Origin: an uncultured Sphingorhabdus sp.
Lineage (GTDB): Bacteria > Pseudomonadota > Alphaproteobacteria > Sphingomonadales > Sphingomonadaceae
Direction of reading: 5' to 3'
Assembly (NCBI GenBank): GCA_937944295.1
Contig: CALDZL010000068.1
Span: 1-64,000, forward strand
Length of the DNA: 64,000 nucleotides
A model generated the notes under the pieces. That model was not told where the DNA came from and searched no databases. It saw only the letters and a list, made by a program, of their open reading frames with translations. Position numbers and translations under genes: made by a program. Positions 11,302 through 17,985 of the stretch are shown in pieces. Each line of letters opens with the position of its first letter. The first letter of the stretch is position 1.

Positions 11302-11335
11302 TAAAAAAGGTGGCTCTGATCAATCAGAGCCACCT
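11302..11335 (-). terminator. Intrinsic terminator of the Cys-rich/YHS cluster
   Basis: Perfect 13-bp stem AGGTGGCTCTGAT/ATCAGAGCCACCT followed on the minus strand by a T-run. Confidence 0.8.
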
Positions 11336-11358
11336 AATCCAATAGCTAAAATTACATA

Positions 11359-11619
11359 TTATGCACTAGGAGCGCATTTAGCAGCACAAGCCGCTCCGCA
11401 AGCTGCACAGGCCGCCGCACATGCTGCACCGCAAGCCGCACAGGCCGCCGCACATGCTGCACCGCAAGCCGCACACGCGCCGCAAGCACCACACGCGCCG
11501 CAAGCACTGCATGCTGAACAAGCGCTACAAGGACCTGCCGCTGCAGTCGCTGGTGCAGTCGCCAATGCTAAGCCACCTGCTACTGCCAATAATGTTGCTA
11601 ATTTTGTTGTCTTTGTCAT
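11359..11619 (-). CDS. Secreted Cys/Ala/Gly low-complexity repeat peptide (86 aa)
   Basis: Signal peptide MTKTTKLATLLAVAGGLALATAPATAAA, then 16 Cys in a region of A, C, G, S, P and one K. Confidence 0.75.
   Translation of the reverse strand: MTKTTKLATLLAVAGGLALATAPATAAAGPCSACSACSACGACGACGACAACGAACAAACAACGAACAAACAACGAACAAKCAPSA
11408..11473. repeat. Two identical tandem 33-bp units within the Cys-rich gene, diverged third copy at 11375-11407
   Basis: caggccgccgcacatgctgcaccgcaagccgca x2 (11408-11440, 11441-11473). Confidence 0.9.
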
Positions 11620-11715
11620 TCTACTCTCCGTTCCGATTAATAATAGAACCTACCATAAGGTCCATCTTCTTTTATGGGGACAAATGATCCAGCGCAAGCA
11701 CTGGATCAAATTCTT

Positions 11716-12327
11716 TTATTGGTTCCCAATGCTTGCGCCATTGGGAATTGCAGGCCATTTAGCATCAGATTTTGCTACAAACCCAGGTATATCTTTCAAC
11801 CATCTTGCTTGAACATTTTTGTTGAAGTTTAGAAACAATCTACCGTCAACAACTTTTGATAGTTTTGGATCTCCTGGTGCCAACCTACCGTTAGACATTG
11901 CCCATGCACAGTGGCCACCATATTGCGGGGCATAATTTGCAGGGTTCTTTTTAAATTTCTTCATATTTTTTTTACTAGCAAACTGATAAGTTGCGCCAGC
12001 ATATTCAAGTGAATATTTTGCGTTACCAGCTACTGGTGTGCCATCACCTTGAAAATAACTTACAACATCATAACCACTTACGGCTGGCTTATCCCCATCT
12101 ATACCTTTAAAAACAGGACGATAAGATGCACTCGAGCTTGCTGCGCAAGCGCCACAACTCGGTGCACATGCACCGCATGAGGCTGCGCAAGCTGATGCAC
12201 AGGCACCGCACGCAGAACAAGCTTTGCATGCACCACATGGCGCAGCGGATATAGTCGCTGGGGCTGTTGCGATTGCCAAACCACCAGCTACTGCTAACAT
12301 TGTTGCCAATTTTACTGATTTACTCAT
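11716..12327 (-). CDS. Secreted protein: N-terminal Cys-repeat region fused to YHS domain
   Basis: MSKSVKLATMLAVAGGLAIATAPATISAAPCGACKACSACGACASAC... then RPVFKGIDGDKPAVSGYDVVSYFQGDGTP...YGGHCAWAMSNGRLAPGDPKLSKVVDGRLFLNFN. Confidence 0.85.
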   Translation of the reverse strand: MSKSVKLATMLAVAGGLAIATAPATISAAPCGACKACSACGACASACAASCGACAPSCGACAASSSASYRPVFKGIDGDKPAVSGYDVVSYFQGDGTPVAGNAKYSLEYAGATYQFASKKNMKKFKKNPANYAPQYGGHCAWAMSNGRLAPGDPKLSKVVDGRLFLNFNKNVQARWLKDIPGFVAKSDAKWPAIPNGASIGNQ

Positions 12328-12384
12328 ATTTTTTCCTAACTAATTAACTAAATTTCAAACAAGGATGAAAAATTACAGCGGTCT

Positions 12385-12936
12385 TTAGGCGCCAAATACA
12401 GCGTCATCTGGAACTGTTGGCCAGGCAGCTTCTGATTTTTCAACATAACCAGGGATATCGCTTAGCCAATCTTTTTGTACTTTTTTGTTAAAGTTCAAAA
12501 ATAATTCACCATCAACAACTTTTGCCAATGTAGCATTACCTGGCGCCAGATTTCCTTTAGACATGGCCCATGCACAATGGCCGCCATATTTAGGTACAAA
12601 AGCAGCTGGGTCACCAATGAATTTTTCTTTATTTGCGGCAGAGGCAAAATGATAAACCGCCTCACCATATTGCACGGAAAAATCTTCGCTGCCCAGAACA
12701 GGCGTGCCATCGTCTGTGAAATAGCTTGTCACATCATAACCCGAAACGGCAACATTTCCCCCTTCTACACCAAGAAACACTGGGCGCTTTGCAGCTTCTA
12801 TAACGACCAATTCATCAGCTGCAGTTTCTGATACGGCGGTTTCATTACCACTATTGGCATAGTCTTCGCCACTACCACATGCAGTCAATCCAAAAATAAT
12901 GGTTGCTGCAGCAGATGATAATAATGTCTTATTCAT
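12385..12936 (-). CDS. YHS-domain lipoprotein
   Basis: Lipobox GLTACGSGED; VAVSGYDVTSYFTDDGTPVLGSEDF...YGGHCAWAMSKGNLAPGNATLAKVVDGELFLNFNKKVQ. Confidence 0.85.
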   Translation of the reverse strand: MNKTLLSSAAATIIFGLTACGSGEDYANSGNETAVSETAADELVVIEAAKRPVFLGVEGGNVAVSGYDVTSYFTDDGTPVLGSEDFSVQYGEAVYHFASAANKEKFIGDPAAFVPKYGGHCAWAMSKGNLAPGNATLAKVVDGELFLNFNKKVQKDWLSDIPGYVEKSEAAWPTVPDDAVFGA

Positions 12937-12953
12937 TAATTTTGTCCTTTTGA

Positions 12954-12987
12954 ACTAATCTATATGTATAAATTCACTAATCTATAT
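12954..12987. promoter_or_regulatory. Direct repeat upstream of the YHS lipoprotein gene
   Basis: actaatctatat at 12954-12965 and 12976-12987, 22-bp period, just upstream of start codon 12936. Confidence 0.4.
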
Positions 12988-13085
12988 ACTATATAACGGT
13001 TCGCAGAACAAATGATATGGTTACAAAATCCTATGATTAATTCCATATTATCAAATTTTAGACCTAAATACCTCACAACAATAGA

Positions 13086-16587: not shown

Positions 16588-17985
16588 TCATTTCTTAGCA
16601 GTAAAATCAAAATCAACGCGCACATCATTCGCTATCTCATCTTGCCCAACCCCAATATTGTGCGCTATTCTGTTAATTTTTGCATATCCTGTAGCGCGGG
16701 CATTATTCTCATTTTCATCTAAAGTAAAATTGATACGCAATGGCCGTTCAATATTTTTGAGGAGCAGCACTCCATCCATTTGATAGCGATTACCACCAAG
16801 GCTCTTTATGCTATTGGAGCTATATTGTGCCTGAGATGATCCCGAAAAGTTAAAATAATCTGCACTGCCAATTGCACCATTAACAGTCGAATCAGAGGTT
16901 GTGACGGACATTAAATTTATCAATATTTTGATGGAAGATTGATCCAAAGCAGCCGATGTAAATTTAATATCAGCATTCCAATCACTAAAATTTCCCGTAA
17001 CAACATCATCATTCCACTTTACTGTAAATCCCAATGATTTTGAACCAATGACAGTCCAATTAGAAGGTTGAATAGCCTTAATTTTTGAAACCTCTGCCTT
17101 TGAAATATCATTCGCCTGATCTGTATCTGCTTGGTCTATATCCGCCTGATCTTCACCCTGAGTTTCCTCTATGTTATTACTCTTCTTTATGTCCTCTCGA
17201 GCCAAGGATGCTATTTCAGAATCCTCAATTGAAAGAGACTGTTCTTCTATCAAAGGCAATGATGTTTCTGGTTCATTAGATATAATAGAAATTGTTTTGA
17301 TTGATTTTACACTGTTCACACTAAATTGAGCAAATATGAACAAGCTCATAAGTGTTGATATAATGAAAAATATGCAGAGCGTCGCATTCATTTTTCCCAA
17401 TGGTTTGATAAGGGGTAATATACGCCATAAAATCGCTTCATCTTTGAAATATTGATGCCTTAATGCACCAGCCACATGCAGGAAGAATAATAAAATTCCT
17501 GCCCAGCTTAATATTTCATGCGCATATGATGATACCATATTCAAGGTTAAGCGCGATACCTCTGATAGGCTCTCAATACCAGGAATATGCGGCCAATAAA
17601 GCGCCTCAAAAATATATGTATCTATATTAAGATCAGAAGTTGACACCATAAGCCAACCACTAAGCGGCATGCCAATCATAAATATATAGAGCGCGATATG
17701 GGTATATTGTGACAATCTATGCGCCCAAGCATCATCATTGAGGGCATTCGGCGGTTTTTTATAAATGCGTAAGATTAAGCGTGCTATTGATGCTAATAAT
17801 ATCAAGATGCCAACCGATTTATGAAATTGCGTGACAGCAAATAGACCCATTTCGTTACTCTGGGAATTTTGCATTTCAGACATATGCCAGCCCAAGCCCA
17901 TTTGAAACGCGAGAGCAAAAGCCAATAACCAATGCAATATTACCGCCAATGCGGAATAATGAAGGGGAGGTAAATTACGCTGCAT
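16588..17985 (-). CDS. Cytochrome b561-like membrane domain fused to YceI-like domain
   Basis: N-term LPPLHYSALAVILHWLLAFALAFQMGLGWHM with further TM His; C-term NWTVIGSKSLGFTVKWNDDVVTGNFSDWNADIKF YceI-like. Confidence 0.8.
   Translation of the reverse strand: MQRNLPPLHYSALAVILHWLLAFALAFQMGLGWHMSEMQNSQSNEMGLFAVTQFHKSVGILILLASIARLILRIYKKPPNALNDDAWAHRLSQYTHIALYIFMIGMPLSGWLMVSTSDLNIDTYIFEALYWPHIPGIESLSEVSRLTLNMVSSYAHEILSWAGILLFFLHVAGALRHQYFKDEAILWRILPLIKPLGKMNATLCIFFIISTLMSLFIFAQFSVNSVKSIKTISIISNEPETSLPLIEEQSLSIEDSEIASLAREDIKKSNNIEETQGEDQADIDQADTDQANDISKAEVSKIKAIQPSNWTVIGSKSLGFTVKWNDDVVTGNFSDWNADIKFTSAALDQSSIKILINLMSVTTSDSTVNGAIGSADYFNFSGSSQAQYSSNSIKSLGGNRYQMDGVLLLKNIERPLRINFTLDENENNARATGYAKINRIAHNIGVGQDEIANDVRVDFDFTAKK

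Follow-up and report, generated by a model that had tools for sequence, protein, structure and literature searches.

A conserved operon of Cys-repeat and YHS proteins as a candidate copper or soft-metal stress module of the sigma-F/NrsF regulon in a Sphingorhabdus-like bacterium

The stretch of DNA analysed here (the window: 64,000 nucleotides of contig CALDZL010000068.1) belongs to a Sphingorhabdus-like metagenome-assembled genome of 2.29 Mb and 86% completeness and carries, on its minus strand, an operon of three genes encoding a YHS lipoprotein (12385-12936), a 203-aa protein that joins a Cys-repeat segment to a YHS domain (11716-12327), and an 86-aa stand-alone Cys-repeat peptide with 16 Cys (11359-11619). 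We consider it probable (about 0.68) that this operon is a copper or soft-metal stress module of the sigma-F/NrsF regulon, in which exported Cys-repeat proteins act as thiol buffers with YHS proteins as partners. Release of sigma-F by NrsF, an anti-sigma factor in the membrane, would let RNA polymerase start at a GTAACC-N15-CGAA site and lead to the export of all three products. Several Cu(I)-like ions would then be bound in the periplasm by thiol buffers, a role we assign to the stand-alone peptide and to the Cys-repeat part of the fusion. Both the lipid-anchored YHS protein and the fusion could exchange metal or redox equivalents with the repeats via their conserved GGHC cysteine. A DUF6969 protein, encoded beside a lipoprotein paralogue of the peptide on another contig, may serve both this paralogue and the window peptides. 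It has recently emerged from bufferins that copper can be sequestered by modified Cys peptides which bacteria export; the operon points to a parallel route, independent of the MNIO enzymes and under apparently the same sigma factor.

The three open reading frames lie in the order and on the strand given by an initial annotation of the window, which had also correctly placed a strong intrinsic terminator after the last gene (11308-11335, minus strand; 12 pairs, -24.3 kcal/mol, z -5.4) and described each product much as we find it. The first protein has a lipobox (LTAC, Cys20) and, like the fusion, belongs to the NF041384 YHS_seleno_dom family, the two matches (1.2e-41, 141.5 bits, and 2.5e-36, 124.3 bits) being far above the curated cut-off of 70 bits. 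In the fusion, ten repeat Cys (residues 31-61; positions 12145-12237) precede the YHS domain (residues 82-192; 11752-12084), which contains one more Cys in the conserved GGHC motif (C140). Comparison with two relatives indicates purifying selection on both YHS-bearing genes (ratio of non-synonymous to synonymous substitution rates, dN/dS, 0.06-0.12 overall: 0.09-0.12 for the lipoprotein and 0.06-0.10 for the fusion). The stand-alone peptide, predicted to be exported, concentrates its 16 Cys in the last 58 residues at a spacing of 3 or 4, has a conserved leader/signal region with the motif LATLLAVAGGLA (11536-11619), and is itself conserved in relatives. Its first 70 residues are 66% identical to those of the fusion, in agreement with the nearly shared signal region and expanded Cys segment noted initially, and the repeat units are CSA, CGA, and CAA. 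No Pfam or NCBIfam model matched the stand-alone peptide at E<=1.

The initial annotation had made its proposal of a periplasmic metal buffer depend in part on conservation of the Cys-repeat gene beside YHS genes in relatives, and this linkage is present in 13 sampled genomes of five genera, with the two fused in three of them. The near relatives G011 and G035 retain all three genes, and a Cys-repeat gene lies beside or between YHS genes in the same-genus genomes G028 and G005 as well as in G108, G253, G206, G264, G360, G237, G325, and G328 from four other genera. The linked cluster is often found at one and the same position of the chromosome, with ilvC, a leuA-like gene, or a nitronate monooxygenase-like gene nearby. 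Repeat sequences diverge among genomes (GACAAAC, ANPCAANPC, NPCSAK, ACAASAC) while the leader stays similar. In the other linked-cluster genomes the YHS proteins have just one Cys or two, which makes it most likely that the fusion is a local innovation, formed when a secreted YHS protein acquired the leader and repeat of the peptide.

The promoter region suggests a link between the operon and a known regulon. A site resembling those of the extracytoplasmic function (ECF) sigma factor sigma-F, GTAACC-N15-CGAA, lies 63 nt before the first start codon (13000-13024, minus strand), and both near relatives keep it as GTAACC or GTAACT with an N15 spacer. In Caulobacter, the sigma-F site of the bufferin operons is GTAACC-N16-CGAA (PMC3511200), a form found exactly in the G206 cluster. 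With spacers of 14-17 allowed, three occurrences of the pattern lie in the window, where 0.26 would be expected; only one of them precedes this operon. We scored, in the 250 nt upstream of each gene, the best site with a spacer of 15 or 16; at least 9 of 10 positions matched for 18/52 cluster genes and for 6/310 other genes of the same regions (Fisher p 3e-12, a value made too small by genome relatedness, whereas the inclusion of internal operon genes lowers the cluster rate); in the positive control, 22/42 bufferin precursors reached this threshold. A sigma-70 scan was uninformative, yielding no more sites than shuffled sequences. NrsF is encoded in all 13 linked-cluster genomes, including the host (G000:C24:46346-46951, preceded by an ECF-sigma-like gene), and in none of nine congeners that lack YHS, DUF6969, and MNIO. 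The bufferin operon of the host has the same sigma-F site, with sigF and nrsF downstream of it. In G185, a genome without MNIO, sigF-nrsF adjoins a Cys-lipoprotein/DUF6969 gene pair and sigma-F-like sites precede both. The Caulobacter sigma-F regulon was induced by Cu in all conditions and a sigF::Tn5 mutant was Cu-sensitive (PMC8224329). Together with the conserved linkage, the promoter and the constant presence of NrsF partly support the metal-buffer idea of the initial annotation. The host resembles Caulobacter in promoter signature, though with a spacer of 15, in possessing sigF-nrsF, and in having a bufferin operon under that signature, but the published regulon contains no YHS/Cys-repeat operon. 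Separately, the element ATAGATTAGT occurs twice at 12954-12985, directly before the first start codon and downstream of the sigma-F-like site.

Genomic context also speaks to the YHS proteins. A YHS_seleno gene precedes MNIO-DUF2063-DoxX genes in G022 and a Buf1-MNIO-DUF2063-DoxX operon in G031 (L050:7961-10931; L064:5554-8524), and a YHS gene directly neighbours an MNIO gene in G016 (C2:961216-962838) and G097 (C1:233955-235651). Because YHS genes sit in bufferin operons, a metal-handling role for these proteins gains support independent of the window. The MNIO survey does not mention YHS (PMC12452194). One listed member of the YHS family has selenocysteine in a GxU motif (PMC13188914), which suggests that the Cys at the GGHC position, presumably C140 in the fusion, is reactive. 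Within the NF041384 family, the window YHS proteins stand out by their linkage to an exported Cys-repeat peptide and, in one case, by fusion with it; the operon would provide a first functional context for the family. A PDB search with a YHS query returned only two eukaryotic chains.

Several points weigh against interpreting the operon as a sigma-F-controlled copper buffer. The window spacer is 15 instead of the published 16, the hexamer and tetramer being exact. Cu is not singled out, since the published regulon responds to Cr and Cd as well. Because the compared genomes are related, their counts cannot be read as so many separate events, and the nine congeners in which NrsF was never found (0/9) had been picked for their lack of YHS, DUF6969, and MNIO. 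DUF6969 is not encoded beside the window operon but on another contig of the same genome. Finally, the AlphaFold models of the fusion (mean pLDDT, predicted local distance difference test, 39.6, from a six-sequence alignment) and of the Cys peptide (a helical single-sequence model of low confidence, pLDDT 59.5) are too weak for use.

Among known systems, bufferins (Buf1/DUF2282 and Buf2) and the oxazolin/EGKCG precursors are the closest in character, with exported Cys-rich products, a leader-like signal peptide, a sigma-F promoter within an NrsF regulon, and probable periplasmic copper sequestration. The window system works like bufferins but fails the bufferin membership features examined: its peptide has no DUF2282 match and no EGKCG motif, whereas the true bufferin of the host matches PF10048 at 1.3e-23; no MNIO or DUF2063 gene, a usual though not universal neighbour of bufferin precursors, adjoins the cluster, nor did tblastn find one within ~5 kb in eight related loci; and its partners are YHS and DUF6969. 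Buf2, compared by description, is a 6/12-Cys precursor, whereas the window peptide has 16 Cys in tandem repeats. The ‘CxxxxC’ precursor class of the MNIO paper, also compared by description (76 MNIO-linked proteins, often with Lactamase_B_2), is unlikely to be the same family. High Cys density makes soft-metal binding expected, as in metallothioneins and Csp proteins, but the window peptide differs from these in being predicted as exported, in its low-complexity tandem repeat, and in matching no curated Pfam or NCBIfam profile, including those of known metallothionein families. Csp proteins are four-helix bundles with Cys lining the core; the model of the window peptide is helical but of low confidence.

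Elsewhere in the host genome (G000:C58), a gene for DUF6969 (PF22308) follows the one encoding the lipoprotein paralogue of the Cys peptide, and this pair recurs through the family. Within the genus, DUF6969 occurs in genomes 0, 5, 11, 12, 13, 28, 30, 35, and 38, and the window-type YHS occurs in the same set minus G030 (Fisher p 5e-8, uncorrected for relatedness). DUF6969 is present in 90/385 sampled Alphaproteobacteria genomes, and a predicted exported Cys-repeat protein is encoded within ~6 kb of it at 22/40 loci from diverse families, against 0/15 control loci and 0/40 reversed sequences. The 30 best-scoring loci with 1.5 kb flanks had given only 3 repeats; the higher yield came with broader flanks and with loci spread more evenly over families. 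Many of the repeats are fused to cytochrome P460 (PF16694). The window peptides, which share the leader and repeat of these proteins but have DUF6969 only beside their paralogue, seem to be members of a wider, apparently undescribed class of DUF6969-associated proteins with exported Cys repeats. Neither DUF6969 nor the repeat motifs were found in the literature searched, whose incomplete coverage makes this weak evidence. At phylum-wide loci, NPCAAK-type repeats are joined, sometimes on both sides, to what looks by eye like a c-type cytochrome domain with CxxCH (L260:522; L262:2957; L264:2448; L265:788). Proteins resembling formylglycine-generating enzyme (FGE)-sulfatases (PF03781), a copper-enzyme family in its studied members, neighbour DUF6969 in 11/40 class-wide loci, some with an evident signal peptide (PF03781 neighbour loci: L194:2304-3179; L202:463-1395; L220; L222; L225; L227; L229-L233; L237; L242), and DUF2336 and cytochrome c do so in 11/40 and 9/40, respectively.

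These associations sustain the strongest alternative, a system resembling the ribosomally synthesized and post-translationally modified peptides (RiPPs), in which DUF6969 would be a metalloenzyme of the cytosol. It would recognize the leader and, before export, alter the repeat Cys by oxidation or in some other way, acting in trans for the window operon. We regard this alternative as possible, with the odds against it; it is compatible with a buffer function, to which it would add a new maturation step. Besides the adjacency of DUF6969 to Cys-repeat genes, an alignment of 28 DUF6969 sequences shows 22 invariant columns, of which seven are His, and no signal peptide is recognizable by eye. The leaders point in the same direction: the signal regions of the Cys peptides have mean identities of 0.52 (secreted) and 0.67 (lipoprotein), compared with 0.31 and 0.44 for YHS proteins of the same or related genomes, a comparison biased because part of the Cys-peptide set was found with a profile containing the leader. 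At ten distinct Sphingomonadaceae loci found via DUF6969, all peptides carry L/F-x-x-(M/L)L-x-(V/I)-x-GG-L. Such conservation is in keeping with a leader recognized by a protein of the cytosol, of which bufferins are an example, although it could also stem from a shared export route. Moreover, no Cys-repeat gene was found closer than 6 kb at 18/40 class-wide loci, the window operon has no adjacent DUF6969, and sequence and profile searches of the PDB returned nothing for DUF6969, leaving it without fold or homology to a known enzyme. A kinship with MNIO was rejected (hhalign probability 0.1). The broader version of this idea, similarly tentative, is that DUF6969 might define an MNIO-independent maturation system, in which a cytosolic metalloprotein acting via conserved leaders on exported Cys-repeat proteins would generate modified periplasmic metal buffers, reused on YHS, cytochrome P460, and cytochrome c-like proteins across Pseudomonadota. 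The linkage would offer a first functional context for DUF6969. If DUF6969 does modify Cys, peptide natural products and metal chelators would gain a new enzyme family; otherwise, the system would be a plain genetically encoded periplasmic metallothionein.

The copper-buffer reading must also be weighed against a thiol redox buffer, in which the thiols of the repeats would be consumed or recycled in defence against hypochlorite, peroxide, or Cr(VI), the YHS proteins would be reductant or repair partners, and metal binding would be incidental. The sigma-F regulon includes a methionine-sulfoxide repair system and answers Cr (PMC3511200, PMC8224329), repeats elsewhere are fused to haem or redox domains, and the selenocysteine-bearing YHS members suggest a reactive residue. 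Nevertheless, the metal-stress phenotype of the Caulobacter sigF mutant is Cu-specific (PMC8224329) and the companion operons are copper buffers, which makes this explanation unlikely.

Still less probable is that the only MNIO of the host, encoded on contig C24 in a Buf1-MNIO-DUF2063-DoxX operon, acts in trans to convert the Cys of the window peptides to thiooxazoles, making them unlinked bufferin-like RiPPs. All 13 linked-cluster genomes encode an MNIO, the sigma-F signature is common to both operons, and sizeable proportions of precursors are reported as unlinked to MNIO genes (PMC12452194). However, none of 45 MNIO loci carries such repeats, the window peptide lacks the precursor hallmarks described above, and related repeats exist in genomes devoid of MNIO, namely 13 of the 22 class-level genomes with Cys-repeat and DUF6969 genes as well as G141, G181, G185, and G329 (the last only 73% complete). 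Because related members occur in these genomes, the wider Cys-repeat family does not require MNIO. The initial annotation had argued against a RiPP-type chalkophore from the absence of a maturation enzyme of this kind nearby; the argument holds for the locus and is reinforced by the MNIO-less genomes, but is weakened by the MNIO that the host encodes elsewhere. That the repeat region has no function of its own and is drifting low-complexity sequence maintained by repeat expansion is highly improbable: repeat number and motif vary greatly and tandem repeats are present in the DNA, but Cys density is kept amid changing sequence in many genera with conserved partners, and such repeats were absent from the reversed and control sequences.

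Other features of the locus and its surroundings complete the description. A hairpin of 10 pairs is predicted between the fusion and peptide genes (11685-11708, minus strand), on a strand without a T-run, and is a possible processing or attenuation site that would set the peptide:fusion ratio. An Rfam search gave no match. A cytochrome b561/YceI fusion is encoded ~4 kb from the cluster (16588-17985), and a YceI-like gene directly adjoins the YHS/Cys cluster in G028 and G108 (L041:7488-8171; L128:3996-4691). The window also contains an AHH-family nuclease-like gene (PF14412; 16022-16522), which is kept near the cluster in another genus as well (L128:7585-8097).
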